From positions 1 to 64,000 of the forward strand of contig NZ_JGZE01000002.1 of the NCBI RefSeq assembly GCF_000741285.1: a stretch of DNA of 64,000 bases, written 5' to 3'. A model generated the notes under the pieces. The model saw only the letters and a list, made by a program, of their open reading frames with translations. It searched no databases and was not told the DNA's origin. Positions 881 to 58,320 of this stretch are shown here, in pieces. Made by a program: the position numbers and the translations under genes. Source of the DNA: Bifidobacterium mongoliense DSM 21395. GTDB lineage: Bacteria > Actinomycetota > Actinomycetes > Actinomycetales > Bifidobacteriaceae. The first letter of the stretch is position 1. Each line of letters begins with the position of its first letter.

Positions 881-3346
881 TCAATGGTTTCTTCTGAATT
901 TCAAACTGCATATAGAACCGCCAATGAGCAAGGTTACGATTGCAAAGACAGTCATCGGTGCAATCTGCGATCCAGTGGAAGCCAAGGTTCCTTGCCTGTG
1001 ATTTGAAATAGAATTGGTCGTTCCCTTACATGCATCCGGATTGCTGGAGGAAGGATGGGCAGGGTGAGAGTTTGACCCTCCGGATGGATTTGCCTGTGCA
1101 GTAGAAGCCACGATGAATGTGTCCACCGATTCGACTGATTGTCCGAGATCGTCAAAGTATGTGATTGTATATGAATATGATCCAGGCGTTTTCGCTCCTT
1201 CGAATGTTACTGAATCATTGCTACGAGAAACTGAGACGGATGCAGATGATGGATTTGATGCTGCCGGTGTCACCGTCGTTTTCTTCCAGTCTATGTTCGA
1301 TGGATTGACTGTAGGTAACTGAGGAGCATTGGCCGAACGAACATCGTTCCGTACGGATGATTCCTTGTCATTGGCGACGTGCAGCACGCTATGCCGAGTG
1401 GCAGTCGGCGCCGGCTGGACATAAATCACGTCAGTCTGCGTGGTCACTGTCTTATTGTTTCGCAGATAGGTAACCTGCAACTGATATGTGCCAGGAATCG
1501 ACATTCCGGGAAAAATCAGTTGTCCGTCCGGTTTGGCTTGAACTGAGTCCGCCTTCAGGTGGGCACCTTGTGGCTTCGAGAGCACCTTGACGCTCGCAGC
1601 ATTCGGAACGGTGCTGGTGATGCCAGCAGATGTAACCTTTGATATTGCATTCTTGATTGTCAGGGATTTCTTAGCGGCGACCTTCGCATAGTCTACCAAG
1701 CCCATGTCTTCCGCAGCGAGAACCTTTTTTGCGGCATCGGATGTGGCATCAGAGGCAAACCATTGCTTGAGTTGGTCATTGTTCACCGCATTATCGATTG
1801 CTGCCATAATCATGGACTGGTCGAGCACAAGACGCCGATGTCCGATTGAACCTGTTGTTGGATTAACAGCGTCATAGAACCCGCCATCGTCTGAATATAT
1901 CCCCGGATAATCCTTCATCAGCGTCTGAATATTGTCATAGGCCTGCTGCGGCGCTACGTCGAGGGCGAGGAACGAGGCGTGTGGTGTGACCGTGGATTCA
2001 ATCGTGTCATCACAGATATTTGCCCCTTGCGCCAGCAGGGGAGCAGATGTGTTGGCGGTTGCTGTGCAGTCATTTCCCCAGGCTTTGCCAGTGGCACCAA
2101 AGGCATTGTATCCTCCCGTATCATCTGCCGTGGAAGAAGGCGATATGCCCCACACCTTATAGCCGAGCTTATCCGTGGCATATCTGATCTGTACCTGCGC
2201 ATACAGTCTGTCGGCAATCCCGTAAGATTTGGTTCCCCAAGTTGTCTCCGGCACTATCTCATTCGCCATCAGAGCCTCGAATTGGCCTCCCCCATATGTT
2301 GGCAAGAAGGTGTAGGAGCTATCCGGATAGGTGTAGTTTCCCTCGAAAACATTGAAACTACCACCGGAAATGGGATCTTTGACCGTTGTCCAGAATCCTT
2401 GCGGAATCTGACCTTCCCAACTGGTGAAGTCGGGATCCGAATCGCATTGCTGAGGAGCAAGGGTCCGCCACGTCTTCCACCATACGTCTCCCGGCATCTG
2501 ACCAAGTCCCATGCCCATGTACATCGAGATTCTTGGGTCGGAATATTGAGCGCCGTTATGATACATGTTGTCACTGGCATTGTCCGAGCCTACATATAAA
2601 CCGCCATATTGCTGCCCCGTTGGAGGGTTATCTGCGAGTGTGCTGTTCACATTGCATGAGGTTTGCGCTCGGCTGTCATAGAAGACGCTAAAATCCATGT
2701 CGGAAAGCAATGCCGTGGCAAGGGATGAAACATGTGGCAATGCCCTGCGCACAACTACCAGACCAGATGCATACCAGCCATTGTCAACTGCCGAGAGAAA
2801 ATTGCAGTTATCTTTTTCTCCGGGTGTAATCGTTGCCGGACAGTTGCCTTGCCCAGGATTTACTATTCGTTTACCTGTTGCAGTGTCATACCATTGGGTG
2901 AGAAATCCGTGATATCTGTCCATCGATTTCACTTCGGTCAACGTGTTTGTTGCCAAAGAAGTTGCTTCCGCCTTGGATATGATGCCCAGGTCAGAGGCTG
3001 AAACGATCGCCCACAAATATACCCCAATATTCGCGGAGGAAGTGTAGCTTCCTTTTTCATTTCCCGGACCAAGATTATCCATAGGCAAATGAGTGGTCGG
3101 ATCGACGTCCTGTTCATAAAAATTCCATGTCGAGGATGCTATGGATTTCAATTCTGTAATTTGTTGAGAGTCCAAACCTTGCTGATTCGTCGCAGTTTCG
3201 AGCATTGAAGCAGTTAACAAATCCGCATTGCTCTGGTTGATTGAATTAGGTTCGGCGCTGGCTAATTGAGTCGATTCCAAACCAATCACAACCATGCCGA
3301 CTGAAATTAATGCAGCTACAACCCTTTTGTATTGAAAGTTATGCAT
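881..3346 (-). CDS. Secreted, wall-anchored DUF3131 (glucoamylase-like) protein
   Basis: An 821-residue secreted protein. I chose the ATG at 3346 (MHNFQYKRVVAALISVG) because GAAGG lies just upstream and it gives a clean signal peptide with cleavage after ASA; an upstream ATG at 3394 has poor spacing to any ribosome site. The body carries the DUF3131/glucoamylase-like pattern: SSANIGVYLWAIVSA, GFLTQWYDTATG, AVDNGWYASGL, then VTPHASFLAL and HRRLVLDQSMIMAAID. Related folds include endo-beta-1,2-glucanase-type enzymes, so a glycan substrate is plausible but not shown. Two Ig-like tandem segments follow. The C terminus ends LASTG, a hydrophobic stretch and KFRRNH, a sortase signal of the LAxTG type. 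AT content is clearly higher than in the core genes, suggesting transfer. No sugar transporter is adjacent. Confidence 0.72.
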   Translation of the reverse strand: MHNFQYKRVVAALISVGMVVIGLESTQLASAEPNSINQSNADLLTASMLETATNQQGLDSQQITELKSIASSTWNFYEQDVDPTTHLPMDNLGPGNEKGSYTSSANIGVYLWAIVSASDLGIISKAEATSLATNTLTEVKSMDRYHGFLTQWYDTATGKRIVNPGQGNCPATITPGEKDNCNFLSAVDNGWYASGLVVVRRALPHVSSLATALLSDMDFSVFYDSRAQTSCNVNSTLADNPPTGQQYGGLYVGSDNASDNMYHNGAQYSDPRISMYMGMGLGQMPGDVWWKTWRTLAPQQCDSDPDFTSWEGQIPQGFWTTVKDPISGGSFNVFEGNYTYPDSSYTFLPTYGGGQFEALMANEIVPETTWGTKSYGIADRLYAQVQIRYATDKLGYKVWGISPSSTADDTGGYNAFGATGKAWGNDCTATANTSAPLLAQGANICDDTIESTVTPHASFLALDVAPQQAYDNIQTLMKDYPGIYSDDGGFYDAVNPTTGSIGHRRLVLDQSMIMAAIDNAVNNDQLKQWFASDATSDAAKKVLAAEDMGLVDYAKVAAKKSLTIKNAISKVTSAGITSTVPNAASVKVLSKPQGAHLKADSVQAKPDGQLIFPGMSIPGTYQLQVTYLRNNKTVTTQTDVIYVQPAPTATRHSVLHVANDKESSVRNDVRSANAPQLPTVNPSNIDWKKTTVTPAASNPSSASVSVSRSNDSVTFEGAKTPGSYSYTITYFDDLGQSVESVDTFIVASTAQANPSGGSNSHPAHPSSSNPDACKGTTNSISNHRQGTLASTGSQIAPMTVFAIVTLLIGGSICSLKFRRNH

Positions 3347-4059
3347 GCAAACCTTCGATTCTTTAGTTCTCTTGTCTTCTCTTTTTGTTCTCATAGACTA
3401 GATAGTCCATTACCTCTAGATACTGTTATTTATTGATGAAAAAAATGAAAGCCATAAAACCTCATTGATATGTATGCGCATTCATCCTCAGTTTCAATTG
3501 TACCATAGTGTACAGTATTTTCAATAATCCAGTGATTATATGATTCTTTAAGATGGTTTTGCCTGTCTGCAAGGGCCCAATTCATATCTGCTTGGCATAA
3601 ATATGTAAGCGCTAACATATTTAAATTCGCTACGATTGCAGATATCCAAAGCAACATGGGTCACACGGCCAAGAAGCCAATCATTTCCAAAATGAGCGAC
3701 ACCGTATGATGGTTGAGAACCCAGACAGTGGAACACATCACAGGAATGGAAAGGCGCCGCGAATATCTCCATCTCTGGCAGCACTGTTTGTGTATCGTTC
3801 CGGGATCATCGATGATGAAGCCACATGCAGCTCGGACAGACGCGGCAAATATCCGAAATAGATCGCCCTGCAAGTAATTCCGAAGGATTGCCAGGATAGA
3901 CACGGAATTCCTTTAAACGTTCGTTTTACGCACCAAGAGTTAACCTACACAGCTATCACCATAGGCAATCGAATCAACCGTGGTTGTTGATTCGTGCGCC
4001 AGTGCCAGCAGCATGATCGAGCTGATCCAGATCGGCAGGTGTGGGCAGCCGCCCACGAT
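3347..4059. other. AT-rich intergenic stretch, about 0.7 kb, no convincing gene
   Basis: I see no protein of recognisable family here on either strand. Small open frames exist but lack ribosome sites and homology that I can recognise. Two short elements are visible: TAAGCGCTAA at 3606-3615, resembling the core of LacI-family operators about 260 bp upstream of the DUF3131 gene, and a small inverted repeat GACTA-GA-TAGTC at 3396-3407 in its leader. The right end carries the hairpin shared with the second fic copy (3970-3994). Confidence 0.4.
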
Positions 4060-5610: not shown

Positions 5611-6378
5611 ATGACCACAGGAATGCAAGAGAGGATGAAGATTAGCCGCCGTGAACGTAACACCACTGCTACGCGTGCGAAAATTTTCGACGTTGCACAT
5701 GAATTGTTTTCTGAAAAAGGGTATGACGCGGTAACTGTCCAACATATTGCTGACACGGCTGATATTGGTATCGGAACGCTGTTCTATCATGCATCTTCGA
5801 AAACTGAGTTGTTTCTCATGGTGTATAACTCTTCGCTGGAACAAGCAATACAAGCTGGCCGAAAAGCCCAGAATGATCTTCCGGCGGATGCTAGTCTTTG
5901 CGATCGTATTCTTGCTCTCTCGCTTCCCATTGCCGATGCGATGAACAGTCCTGAAGCTGGAAACTTTGCCAGATATCACAAGGAGTTGCTGTTCGGTGAT
6001 TCCAACGATCGTTATAGGCGTGCCGGCATTGATTTGGTCAGAGGCTTTGAAAGCGAGGTTGCAGGTGTGTTAGGCGGCGCGCTGCATATTGATGCGCACA
6101 GTTTGCTGACACGACTGACCGCCCGTGCAATCTTCGCTGCATTGCATTTCGATATTGCCTTACCTGAGACGGATTTGAACCCGGCCACCAGATTCGCGGG
6201 TGCTGGTTCGATGAGTCTTCGCATGCAGATTCAGATTATCGTCGAAGGTTTTGAAAGTATCGGCGCACGCCACGCCACACCCAACCGTGGTGAGTTGAAT
6301 CTGGGGACGCAAGCAGCTCACACCAGTGACGACAACGACTCTTGGTTGGCCGTCATCCCGGCTCACGATGTTTCCTGA
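5611..6378 (+). CDS. TetR-family regulator, likely controls oleate hydratase
   Basis: A 255-residue TetR repressor. The start is supported by GAGGTAGGAAGC directly before the ATG. Residues about 17-65 form the helix-turn-helix ([20 protein letters not shown], then [20 protein letters not shown]), a classic TetR DNA-binding domain. The rest is a helical ligand-binding domain that I cannot assign to a ligand. The oleate hydratase gene begins 53 bp downstream on the same strand, so the two are probably co-transcribed, and the twin palindrome at 5536-5563 is the obvious operator. A fatty acid or another membrane-active compound is a reasonable inducer, but this is inference from the neighbour only. 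Confidence 0.85.
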
Positions 6379-33414: not shown

Positions 33415-34036
33415 ACGGTGGTTCCTCTCGAATGACTGCTCAGACGATAGCCCGATAACCTGCGCATTGCCTTACATCGGGCCACACCGTCACGAGACCT
33501 TGGAATACCCCCCCTGAACGACCCCTTGAATGCTCCCCCAGTGCGGGCATGACCCGCCATGCCATCTCACGATTGAGTTCACATAGTGGTCGCCGATTTG
33601 GCATACTCGGCGACGGCTCCCACAATGGGGGCACCACGCCGGCCCTTCGGTCGGCAGGAGAATAGCACTGGGAGAGGGTTCCACATGGAGCGCAATATGA
33701 TGCAGCGGGTCGTTACGATGAACACCATCGTCGTCGTCCGTCGAATTATCATCGCGTCCCTGCTGGCGCGCTAACCGTAGATTTCTCCCGTCGCATGGCC
33801 CGCTTATCAGCCGGGCATCACGACACCCTTCATATGATGGACACCGCGAATCGTCCGCGCGCATCACGACGCAGCACCGATTCCACGCGAAGAACAGCCA
33901 CAAGCATGTCACCGCGTACGTGCCGTTCATCTGTGATGTGCATCAGTTCCCCATATCTGTGATCTGATCAGTAATCCGACGATCCATCATCCCGCCACCA
34001 GCGGTCGGATCACCGTTCGCGAACCGCCGCACGCCG
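33415..34036. other. Intergenic stretch, possible zinc-ribbon gene remnant
   Basis: No convincing gene. A minus-strand frame within 33490-33930 reads WCPHCGSRRRVCQIGDHYV, which looks like a zinc ribbon of a transposase N terminus, but it has no ribosome site, flanks are unstructured and no catalytic domain follows. I regard it as a possible mobile-element scar. The repeat array listed next begins at 34037. Confidence 0.3.
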
Positions 34037-34190
34037 CGTATCGCATGTTGTCCTTGATACGTGACGTATCGCAGCACACGTCATGCGTTGCCCGCCACAC
34101 GTGGCCCGCCACACAGTGTCCGCCGCACGTCGTTGATTGCACGTCATCATTCGCACGCCGTCACCCACATCGTGTCCATCACATGACGCG
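34037..34190 (+). repeat. 14-bp periodic repeat array upstream of the BASS transporter
   Basis: Seven in-phase 14-bp units are clear from 34093: CGCCACACGTGGCC, CGCCACACAGTGTC, CGCCGCACGTCGTT, GATTGCACGTCATC, ATTCGCACGCCGTC, ACCCACATCGTGTC, CATCACATGACGCG. The common centre is RCAYR. To the left, CGTATCGCA occurs at 34037 and 34065, exactly two units apart, so the array may be longer. It also holds an inverted repeat GATACG-TGA-CGTATC (34056-34070). It ends about 140 bp before the transporter start. Confidence 0.6.
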
Positions 34191-34331
34191 ACCGTCGGCC
34201 CCCGCTTCCGAGGTCGATTCGACGGTCGTCCACCAGACTTGGCCCGAGACGCCACGGTCATGCCGCCCCATTCGGCGACATCGCCATCCGGCCTCCGGAC
34301 CACCCATAAGAGAGAGAAAAGAAGAAACACC

Positions 34332-35363
34332 ATGAATAGAACGAAACAAGCGGCCGCCTGGCTCACCAAGTGGTTCACGCTGATCGTCATCGTCTGGGCC
34401 GCGTTCAATTACGCGGTTCCGGCCACCAGCCTCTGGGCGAAGAGCTACACCGGGTATCTGCTCGGCGTAGTGCTTTTCGGCATGGGCCTGACCCTGTCGC
34501 TGGACGATTTCGGACGCATCCTGAAGCAGCCCCTCATGGTGATCGTCGGCACGGTGGCGCACTACGTGATCATGCCCTTGGTCGCCGTCTTCCTGTGCTG
34601 GCTCTTCCACCTCTCGGGCCCGCTGGCCGTGGGCGTCATCCTCGTCGGCTGCTGCCCGTCCGGCACCTCATCGAACGTGATGAGCTTCCTGTCCCGCGAT
34701 GACGTGGCGCTCGACGTGTCGATCGGCGTGCTCTCCACGCTGCTCGCGCCGTTCATGATCCCGCTGCTCATGCAGCTGCTCGCCTCGCGCTACGTGGCCA
34801 TCCCGTGGCAGTCCCTGTTCATCAACGCCCTCACCGTCGTGCTGCTCCCGGTCGCCCTCGGCGTGCTCTGCCACATGATCTTCCGTGAGAAGATCGAGAA
34901 GGTCACCGTGGCGCTGCCCATCGTGTCCCAGGTCGCAATCCTGCTCATCATCGGCGTGGTCGTCGCCGCCAACCAGCCCCGCCTCTTCAGCGCCGCGACG
35001 CTGCTCGCCATCCCCGTCGTCATCCTGCACAATCTCTCCGGCTACGCCCTTGGGTTCGGCTTCTCCAAGCTCATGTACCGCGTGTATCCGAAGGGCTTCC
35101 GCTACGCGCAGCAGAAGGCCATCACCTTCGAGGTCGGTATGCAGGACTCCGGTCTCGGCGCCACTCTCGCTCTGACGTCGTTCGCCGCCTCACCCGTCGC
35201 GGCCATCCCCTCGACGTTCTTCAGCGTGTGGCACAACATCTCCGGTTCGGTGCTCTCCGCCTGGTGGCGCGCGCATGATGACAAGCACGCGATCGCCCAC
35301 GATTCCGACAACGGAGAGAAGCGTTCGGCCACCGTCCCGGCGATGGCCACCGCGACCGACTGA
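34332..35363 (+). CDS. Bile acid:sodium symporter (BASS) family transporter
   Basis: A 343-residue membrane protein with about ten helices. Family marks are LFGMGLTLSLDDFGRILKQP in the N-terminal half, VGCCPSGTSSNVMSFLSRDDVALDVS (the crossover region with the sodium-binding residues) and FEVGMQDSGLGATLAL in the C-terminal half. Start ATG 34332 follows an AGAGAGAAAAGAAG purine run. The family carries bile acids, pantoate, pyruvate or sulfur compounds; the substrate here is open. The gene stands alone, facing a tRNA gene downstream. A cytosolic, hydrophilic C-terminal tail of about 35 residues follows the last helix. Confidence 0.88.
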   Translation: MNRTKQAAAWLTKWFTLIVIVWAAFNYAVPATSLWAKSYTGYLLGVVLFGMGLTLSLDDFGRILKQPLMVIVGTVAHYVIMPLVAVFLCWLFHLSGPLAVGVILVGCCPSGTSSNVMSFLSRDDVALDVSIGVLSTLLAPFMIPLLMQLLASRYVAIPWQSLFINALTVVLLPVALGVLCHMIFREKIEKVTVALPIVSQVAILLIIGVVVAANQPRLFSAATLLAIPVVILHNLSGYALGFGFSKLMYRVYPKGFRYAQQKAITFEVGMQDSGLGATLALTSFAASPVAAIPSTFFSVWHNISGSVLSAWWRAHDDKHAIAHDSDNGEKRSATVPAMATATD

Positions 35364-35489: not shown

Positions 35490-35562
35490 GCCCGGGTAGC
35501 TCAGGGGATAGAGCACCGCTCTCCTAAAGCGGGTGTCGTGAGTTCGAATCTCATCTCGGGCA
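35490..35562 (+). tRNA. tRNA-Arg, anticodon CCT (reads AGG)
   Basis: The 73-base gene folds as a normal cloverleaf: acceptor GCCCGGG with CTCGGGC, D arm around AGCTCAGGGGATAGAGC, anticodon arm CCGCT-CTCCTAA-AGCGG, and T arm with GTTCGAATC. The loop places CCT as the anticodon. Discriminator base A; no CCA is encoded. Confidence 0.95.
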
Positions 35563-35568
35563 CGACAA

Positions 35569-42093: not shown

Positions 42094-42177
42094 CCTTACT
42101 TTGGGCGACTTGCTCTGGGCGTTCACTCTGCGCGGACTTACTCTCGGCGATTTGCTCTGGGCGTTCACTCTGCGCGA
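42094..42177 (-). repeat. Six 14-bp tandem repeats in the aminotransferase leader
   Basis: Units on the + strand: CCTTACTTTGGGCG, ACTTGCTCTGGGCG, TTCACTCTGCGCGG, ACTTACTCTCGGCG, ATTTGCTCTGGGCG, TTCACTCTGCGCGA. Units 1-3 and 4-6 also form a 42-bp duplication. The array abuts the ribosome site. It occupies the left part of the 322-bp divergent spacer before the DUF4391 gene; the remainder shows no gene. Confidence 0.8.
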
Positions 42178-42408
42178 CAGCGCCATCTTACGGACGTTTG
42201 CCCTCCCCGAACGCCCACGCACCTATACCTATTGGTTATGCCCCGTTCTCAACCCCCATCGGGAGTAGGCCGCAACGACCCCGGGTTCCGCGGGCCGGCG
42301 ATATCGTGGCGCGGCAGGGCGTCGAACCGCTAGGATACAAAGCAACACCACAGTCGTCAGGCGGTCGGGGTTTTGATGCGCCGGGCGACGAACGAAAGAG
42401 GGTCTTCG

Positions 42409-57435: not shown

Positions 57436-58320
57436 CTATGCACGTTCGCTATGCACGGCATGGCCGCCGAACTGGTTACGCAGTGCGGCGACCACCTTCA
57501 TCGTCATGGGGTCGTCGAGCTGTGAGTTCTGTCGGGCGAACAACGAGGCCGCCGTCACTGGCAATGGCACTCCCATATCCAGACCATCCTGCACCATCCA
57601 ACGTGCCTCTCCCGTCTCCTCCGCCCTGCCCGCGATCCGTGCCAGATCAGGATCGTCCTTGAGGGCTCGCACCAGCAGGTCGAGCAGCCACGACCGCACT
57701 ACCGAGCCCTCACGCCACGAGTCGCAGACCCGGTCGGGGCATTCGACCAGATCGCTGGCCTCCATCATGGCGTATCCTTCGCCCAGAGCCTGCATCATGC
57801 CGTATTCGATGCCATTGTGAATCATTTTCACATAGTGACCCGCGCCGACCGGACCGGCATGCACCAACCCACTGTCACCGGACGGCTTGAGCGTTTCGAA
57901 GACCGGGAGGATGCGCTCGAAGTCCGAGTCATTGCCCCCTACCATGAGCGCATAGCCGCACTCACGCCCCCATACACCTCCGGAAGTGCCGACGTCCATG
58001 AAATGGATGCCATCACGCCCCAGTTCCTTAGCGTGACGCTGATCATCGCGATATCGCGTATTGCCGCCGTCAATCACCAGATCCCCCGGATCAAGCAGCT
58101 CCGACAACTCAGCGATGGTACCGTCCGTCGCCGCGCCCGCCGGCACCATGACCCACAAGGTGCGCGGGCTTGGCAACGCCTCGACGAGACCCGACAGTGA
58201 ATCCACGTCGCGCCCCGAGTCGGCGGCCATATCGTAGCCGACGACCCGGTGCCCTCCCTCACGTAAACGTTGCACCATGTTGCCGCCCATGCGGCCCAAC
58301 CCAATCATACCGATGTCCAT
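57436..58320 (-). CDS. gnd: 6-phosphogluconate dehydrogenase, short decarboxylating type
   Basis: A 294-residue enzyme oxidising 6-phosphogluconate to ribulose 5-phosphate. N-terminal Rossmann motif MIGLGRMGGNM, VIDGGNTRYRDD, the catalytic MDVGTSGGVWG and GHYVKMIHNGIEYGMMQ with Lys/His/Asn/Glu. The about 300-residue size marks the short (GntZ/YqeC-like) class rather than the 480-residue pentose-phosphate enzyme. Start ATG 58320 follows AAAGGAATCGAT. It lies in a gluconate set with gntK and gntP, giving uptake, phosphorylation and entry to pentose metabolism. Confidence 0.93.
   Translation of the reverse strand: MDIGMIGLGRMGGNMVQRLREGGHRVVGYDMAADSGRDVDSLSGLVEALPSPRTLWVMVPAGAATDGTIAELSELLDPGDLVIDGGNTRYRDDQRHAKELGRDGIHFMDVGTSGGVWGRECGYALMVGGNDSDFERILPVFETLKPSGDSGLVHAGPVGAGHYVKMIHNGIEYGMMQALGEGYAMMEASDLVECPDRVCDSWREGSVVRSWLLDLLVRALKDDPDLARIAGRAEETGEARWMVQDGLDMGVPLPVTAASLFARQNSQLDDPMTMKVVAALRNQFGGHAVHSERA

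Follow-up and report, generated by a model that had tools for sequence, protein, structure and literature searches.

The 64,000-nucleotide window analysed here (Bifidobacterium mongoliense DSM 21395, assembly GCF_000741285.1, contig NZ_JGZE01000002.1, positions 1 to 64,000, forward strand) carries a long leader ahead of a gene for a BASS-family transporter. In the reading that we favour, with a probability of roughly 0.7, the degenerate 14-bp array at 34037-34190 is debris of local tandem duplication and the leader is descended from an isoleucine attenuator, the two being unrelated features that share one leader. The conserved part of the leader, a small ORF with a hairpin (33685-33774), lies outside the repeat region. 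Judged from sequence comparison, the window leader is a divergent member of a family of isoleucine attenuators of Bifidobacterium that is apparently undescribed. A literature search found no paper on this attenuator; at gathering scores, a tRNA was the only Rfam 15 match in the window, and six loci searched against Rfam at E<=1 gave one tRNA and nine matches below the gathering scores.

The small ORF of the window encodes a predicted leader peptide of 29 codons, MERNMMQRVVTMNTIVVVRRIIIASLLAR* (33685-33774, + strand). It is preceded by the Shine-Dalgarno-like sequence GGGAGAGGG (33670-33678, + strand) and, in the promoter region, by the motif CACATAGTG (33580-33588, + strand), which is common to other leader copies and occurs a second time in the window at 57829. 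Homologues that are likewise 29 codons long stand before the BASS gene of the nearest relative, G095 (L058), and before MHS2, which encodes an MHS-type MFS transporter, in the window's own genome (L091), in G095 (L092) and in G079 (L134). The five divergent copies thus come from three genomes and precede two kinds of gene. A purine-rich site is seen, by reading, at the Shine-Dalgarno position of all five, and each has the string CGYCGAATTAT and, where the ORF stops, a hairpin. In the window, the codons ATT ATC ATC (Ile-Ile-Ile; 33745-33753, + strand), preceded by CGT CGA, are the candidate control codons, and the hairpin CGCGTC-N6-GGCGCG (33753-33770, + strand) occupies the 3' end of the small ORF and adjoins its stop codon. 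Together with an outer stem of four pairs, 92% of the 50 cells of this hairpin pair in the five copies, compared with 10-48% in slid versions; its covariation is no better than in shuffles (198/500). Folding of the window's small ORF with a further 120 nt gives an unremarkable energy (z 0.73), and the other four copies range from z -0.93 to -2.62. When the 921-bp leader was searched as DNA against 112 genomes of the genus, 33671-33778 matched G095 at 80% and the sole further match was a 30-bp piece in G056. Several candidate relatives were rejected: one in Corynebacterium flavescens (L059) lies, by reading, inside a longer CorA-like coding frame; a pattern search gave 19 matches, comprising the five known copies and 14 others, of which 11 were read and judged to be chance; and among ten loci read after weak protein-model matches, only the G079 copy (L134) held up.

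R1, a covariance model that covers the 38-nt end and was built only from divergent copies, found many canonical leaders, the best at 33.1 bits (E 1.5e-4). The window copy, with its short ORF, candidate control codons and first hairpin, scores 56.7 bits with R1, which was trained on it. A second model of the element (R2) gave matches at E<=0.01 in 87 of the 112 Bifidobacterium genomes, among them that of the window, usually with one copy each. In the canonical layout, a Shine-Dalgarno site precedes an ORF that opens with ATG, continues with variable residues and mostly ends in ARII[I/S]PSSLAD; after the stop codon come CCCCGCCAACGAAGGCAGGG and a GCCCTGC..GCGGGGC-TTTT-type terminator. The core is CGAATTATTA or a near form of it, which also served as the search pattern. 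By this pattern and the downstream gene we located 69 copies, 65 of them distinct: 62 precede an MHS gene, six a BASS gene and one ilvC, and the six BASS copies are suggested to represent three species, each seen twice. Every distinct leader (65/65) has an in-frame start with GGAGG, AAAGG or GAGG before it, and the peptides of the 65 are 17-44 codons long, most with the ending given above. A run of at least four T is found in 57/65, a T tract of at least five after a G/C run in 44/65, and CACATAGTG upstream in 30/65, where leaders with fewer than 200 upstream bases were counted as misses.

The canonical leaders contain complementary segments that compete. The first hairpin, formed by regions 1 and 2 with an outer stem, is paired in 91.8% of cells over 28 sequences, with two pairs changed on both sides; the antiterminator helix between regions 2 and 3 is paired in 93.4% of cells over 28 sequences, compared with 28-58% in slid controls, and changes on both sides occur in 4 of its 12 pairs. 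Region 2 is common to both helices, which are mutually exclusive. Region 3 can also fold on itself (3a:3b, 96.4% of cells), with one-sided changes only. Gene order, a conserved ORF, competing segments with some compensatory changes and a terminator are properties of the family, and we infer from them ribosome stalling and a switch. The ribosome would translate the short leader peptide and, if charged Ile-tRNA is scarce, would stall on the Ile codons, so that region 2 would pair with region 3 as an antiterminator and transcription would read through. If isoleucine is plentiful, the ribosome would reach the stop codon, region 3 would fold on itself and the terminator would form. The alignment shows that GGCAGGGC is complementary to the first arm of the terminator, which suggests how 2:3 pairing could free GGCAGGGC to break the terminator.

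Outside the genus, the element stands before a BASS gene in an Actinomycetales MAG (L047, 39.0 bits) and in Actinomyces polynesiensis (L043, 26.6 bits). A class-wide R2 search that sampled 394 genomes yielded no other copy that convinced, three weak matches besides the window's genome being located, by reading, within long open frames. Among known systems, the leader-peptide (uORF) attenuators of Corynebacterium ilvB, named the ilvB-II motif (PMC10272879), are similar in that a short ORF rich in branched-chain residues precedes a branched-chain amino acid gene and attenuation proceeds via translation of the ORF. Set side by side by description, they differ in the gene controlled, which is ilvB there and MHS with ilvC, or BASS, here. 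Seliverstov et al. 2005 described candidate RNA elements of amino acid genes in Actinobacteria, among which ilvB operons, trp and leuS have a leader peptide together with a terminator; the sections of that paper available to us report no Bifidobacterium ilvC, MHS or BASS leader (PMC1262725).

The genes downstream make isoleucine a sensible signal. We fetched 16 regions, of which 12 have the leader before MHS1 and ilvC, while the others have it before BASS (L275), directly ahead of ilvC (L276, one copy) or before MHS2 (L277, L285). IlvC is encoded by the next same-strand gene after the leader-preceded MHS1 in all 12 such loci; it was identified by HMM in 10, the window's genome (L270) included, and by motif in two, and six of the 12 ilvC genes had not been tagged by the gene-calling script and were recognised by reading before confirmation by HMM. 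One genome (G050) has leader copies before ilvC, BASS and MHS2. Since an ilvC locus under an isoleucine leader makes pathway sense, BASS and MHS2 probably belong to the same regulon, and the BASS gene of the window would accordingly be placed, with probability rather than certainty, in an isoleucine/valine regulon. This gene (34332-35363, + strand) encodes a protein of 343 aa of the SBF family, PanS-like (PF01758, 138.6 bits against a cut-off of 24.3), which scores 244.8 bits with TIGR00841 and 237.2 bits with the PanS model NF047939, both under their curated cut-offs. If the regulon is as supposed, the protein probably carries branched-chain amino acids or the corresponding 2-oxo acids, and the resemblance to PanS would be compatible with a 2-oxo acid substrate. 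Orthologous BASS genes carry the canonical form of the leader in B. avesanii, B. moraviense and B. vespertilionis. Across the genus, the majority of BASS genes are without this leader, R1 reaching E<0.05 in 5/62 BASS loci and in the window. The attenuator offers a genus-wide and directly testable regulatory connection of isoleucine supply with ilvC and with transporters of three types (MHS1, MHS2 and BASS), and a handle on the exchange of branched-chain amino acids or 2-oxo acids by bifidobacteria.

Some neighbouring features were recorded in passing. Two adjacent ilvC-like genes lie downstream of MHS1 in L271 (on opposite strands), L272, L273, L281 and L282. A tRNA-Arg (CCT) gene is situated at 35490-35563, just downstream of BASS, and a tRNA follows BASS in L058 too. 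At 881-3394 and 5611-6378 of the window there are long frames of atypical codon usage, with scores under the caller's threshold, which were perhaps acquired.

The window copy retains the CACATAGTG motif, the small ORF, the Ile/Val codons and the first hairpin. Its downstream part is different. No intrinsic terminator was found in the 557 nt between the small ORF and BASS, and R2 did not match the window even at E<=1; in L058 of the nearest relative, R2 reached just 13.5 bits (E 0.42). The best downstream complement of region 2 in the window (-21.5) is no better than the shuffle mean (-24.8) and no region 3 was found, so this copy shows no 2:3 switch of the classical kind. The array was also tried as the attenuator's missing region 3 and rejected, the duplex energy being no better than in shuffles. 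Expression of BASS probably still depends on translation of the leader peptide in the window copy, and Rho may perhaps, on tentative grounds, replace the intrinsic terminator. Since one group of copies has no terminator, nature provides a comparison of two ways of finishing an attenuator.

A rival reading, in which Rho loads on the C-rich stretch after the small ORF, array included, and the leader peptide belongs to a Rho-dependent attenuator that took the place of the intrinsic terminator, is in our opinion doubtful, though it has several points in its favour. Rho is encoded, and no T run after the small ORF is longer than three. The C/G ratio of 33775-34331 is 1.55, a value reached by 5/139 gene-proximal leader stretches in the genome sample (<=300 bp; median 0.89), and in the five divergent copies the ratio is 1.18-1.78, compared with 1.05-1.39 in seven canonical leaders. 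However, these two ranges overlap, the canonical leaders compared number only seven and contain a balanced terminator that lowers C/G, richness in C predicts Rho action weakly, and the array itself is not conserved. Attenuators of the E. coli tnaC type are Rho-dependent, with a leader peptide followed by a stretch that has no intrinsic terminator. The leader peptide of the window likewise precedes such a stretch, whereas its ligand, its stalling peptide and its Rho site are only putative. In the Actinobacteria study, the tna operon is named Rho-dependent, and Rho-dependent termination is suggested for cys operons and for the cbs gene of B. longum, where leader peptides were found without clear terminators (PMC1262725).

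The missing terminator and region 3 could also mean that the attenuator of the window has decayed into a non-functional remnant and that BASS is expressed constitutively. We consider this unlikely, as the length of 29 codons, the Shine-Dalgarno-like site, the Ile codons and the hairpin are all kept in the five divergent copies, and their maintenance in three genomes and ahead of two kinds of gene argues for selection. A bolder combination, in which the BASS and MHS2 attenuators of the window's genome, G095 and G079 swapped the intrinsic terminator for Rho and the growing C-rich 14-nt repeats of the window's species tune BASS through their length as a Rho loading region, seems quite improbable to us.

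The array itself is real and strongly diverged. The initial annotation had described at least seven in-phase 14-bp units and an exact duplicate spaced by 28 bp; both descriptions hold, with eight 14-mers in register from 34085 and the duplicate CGTATCGCA at 34037-34045 and 34065-34073 (34037-34073 overall, unstranded). The consensus of the eight 14-mers is ACGTCGTCCRCCRC, in which position 14 is C in 8/8 units and position 1 is A in 7/8. Self-identity of 34037-34190 at lag 14 is 0.514 (z 6.16), followed by lags 28 (z 4.22), 56 (z 3.58) and 42 (z 3.29), and none of 1000 dinucleotide shuffles of this region reached the observed maximum z over lags 5-60. The maximal segment of lag-14 self-repeat extends over 34064-34184 (unstranded; score 25.9, z 12.7), and no periodicity was detected in the flanks (33420-34036, P 0.26; 34190-34331, P 0.94). 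The units are not near-identical: lag-14 identity is 0.49-0.56, varying with the stretch taken, and Tandem Repeats Finder reports just 3.1 copies at 34089-34130 with 80% matches. Identity is highest between neighbours and lower at longer distances, which would be the pattern expected of tandem duplication with later divergence, although the fall with lag is not monotonic (0.51 at lag 14, 0.45 at 28, 0.42 at 35 and 42, 0.44 at 56). As a stable RNA structure the array was rejected (fold z +1.0). Elsewhere in the window, at 42095-42178, a 42-bp unit is present twice at 92% identity and has 14-bp substructure within.

Short degenerate arrays are common in the intergenic DNA of the window's genome and are not limited to leaders. 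We scanned 310 kb of this genome for maximal self-repeat segments at lags 5-40 in intergenic regions of at least 60 bp, with genes called by a custom script and dinucleotide shuffles of the same region as the null. The initial scan covered 155 regions, 30 of them at P<=0.01; after L098 (4-kb overlap with the window) and L108 were dropped, 147 regions remained, of which 27 (18.4%) have an array at P<=0.01. The arrays are enriched genome-wide, and others exist within the window as well, 9 of 37 called intergenic regions there having such a segment at P<=0.01. Since the periods differ and the enrichment is genome-wide, a process of duplication or slippage is likelier than one regulator's operator set, as had been proposed. 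The accompanying idea of a recurrent way of building leaders is not supported. At P<=0.02, arrays occur in 8/23 convergent, 17/89 tandem and 3/35 divergent regions of this sample, hence they are no rarer between convergent genes, where leaders are absent, and the 14-bp array is not conserved in the leader of the nearest relative.

Applied to samples from six further members of the genus, the same scan gave arrays at P<=0.01 in 7/15 regions of G095, 7/32 of G001, 5/33 of G074, 3/31 of G028, 3/33 of G079 and 1/28 of G015. In regions around BASS loci, Bifidobacterium had 19/125 at P<=0.01 versus 2/56 in other genera, and 38/125 versus 12/56 at P<=0.05, where the gap is narrow; from the counts of the other genera at the two thresholds the null was judged somewhat lenient. 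The set of other genera comprised 27 listed loci, from which L077 was dropped for runs of N, and two of its members (L039 and L040) belong to the same family as Bifidobacterium. Among regions of at least 200 bp in G000, near lags gave 13/64, lags 60-95 gave 4/64 and lags 105-140 gave 3/64. In the favoured reading, local tandem duplication in fast-changing intergenic DNA has left the 14-bp array behind as debris, and duplication of this kind would be habitual throughout this Bifidobacterium genome and, to a varying degree, in the genus. The arrays suggest that bifidobacterial intergenic DNA is rewritten quickly via tandem duplication, and they advise caution, as similar repeats should not be taken for regulators.

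Two functional readings of the array have to be weighed against the debris reading. Binding of a transcription factor or an RNA-binding protein to the repeated units of the array would account for a core recurring at a fixed 14-bp spacing; we regard it as very improbable. Fourteen base pairs is not a helical repeat, the DNA search did not find the array in the remaining 111 of the 112 genus genomes, the gene caller gave a BASS leader in five of 52 other Bifidobacterium BASS loci and none of the five has a repeat at P<=0.05, and the other arrays of the genome have different periods. An operator set in particular was rejected on this lack of conservation together with the other periods. Least credible of all is a role in the BASS promoter as an element that varies in phase or is tuned by copy number, since the array, real as it is and about 150-270 bp upstream of the BASS start codon, consists of units so diverged that slippage should be hindered, is missing from the leader of the nearest relative, contains no site in a simple promoter scan and has counterparts no rarer between convergent genes. 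Variable-number tandem or slippage repeats are a known class of short tandem units in intergenic DNA; the array shares with them these short intergenic units and differs from them in the strong divergence of its units. The nearest relative, G095, is still richer in short arrays (L160 4767-5145, 5911-7194 and 8251-9740). In the window's genome, the strongest self-repeats of the sample have a 21-bp period (L098 14568-14802 and L099 6696-6983) and may be missed coding repeats.
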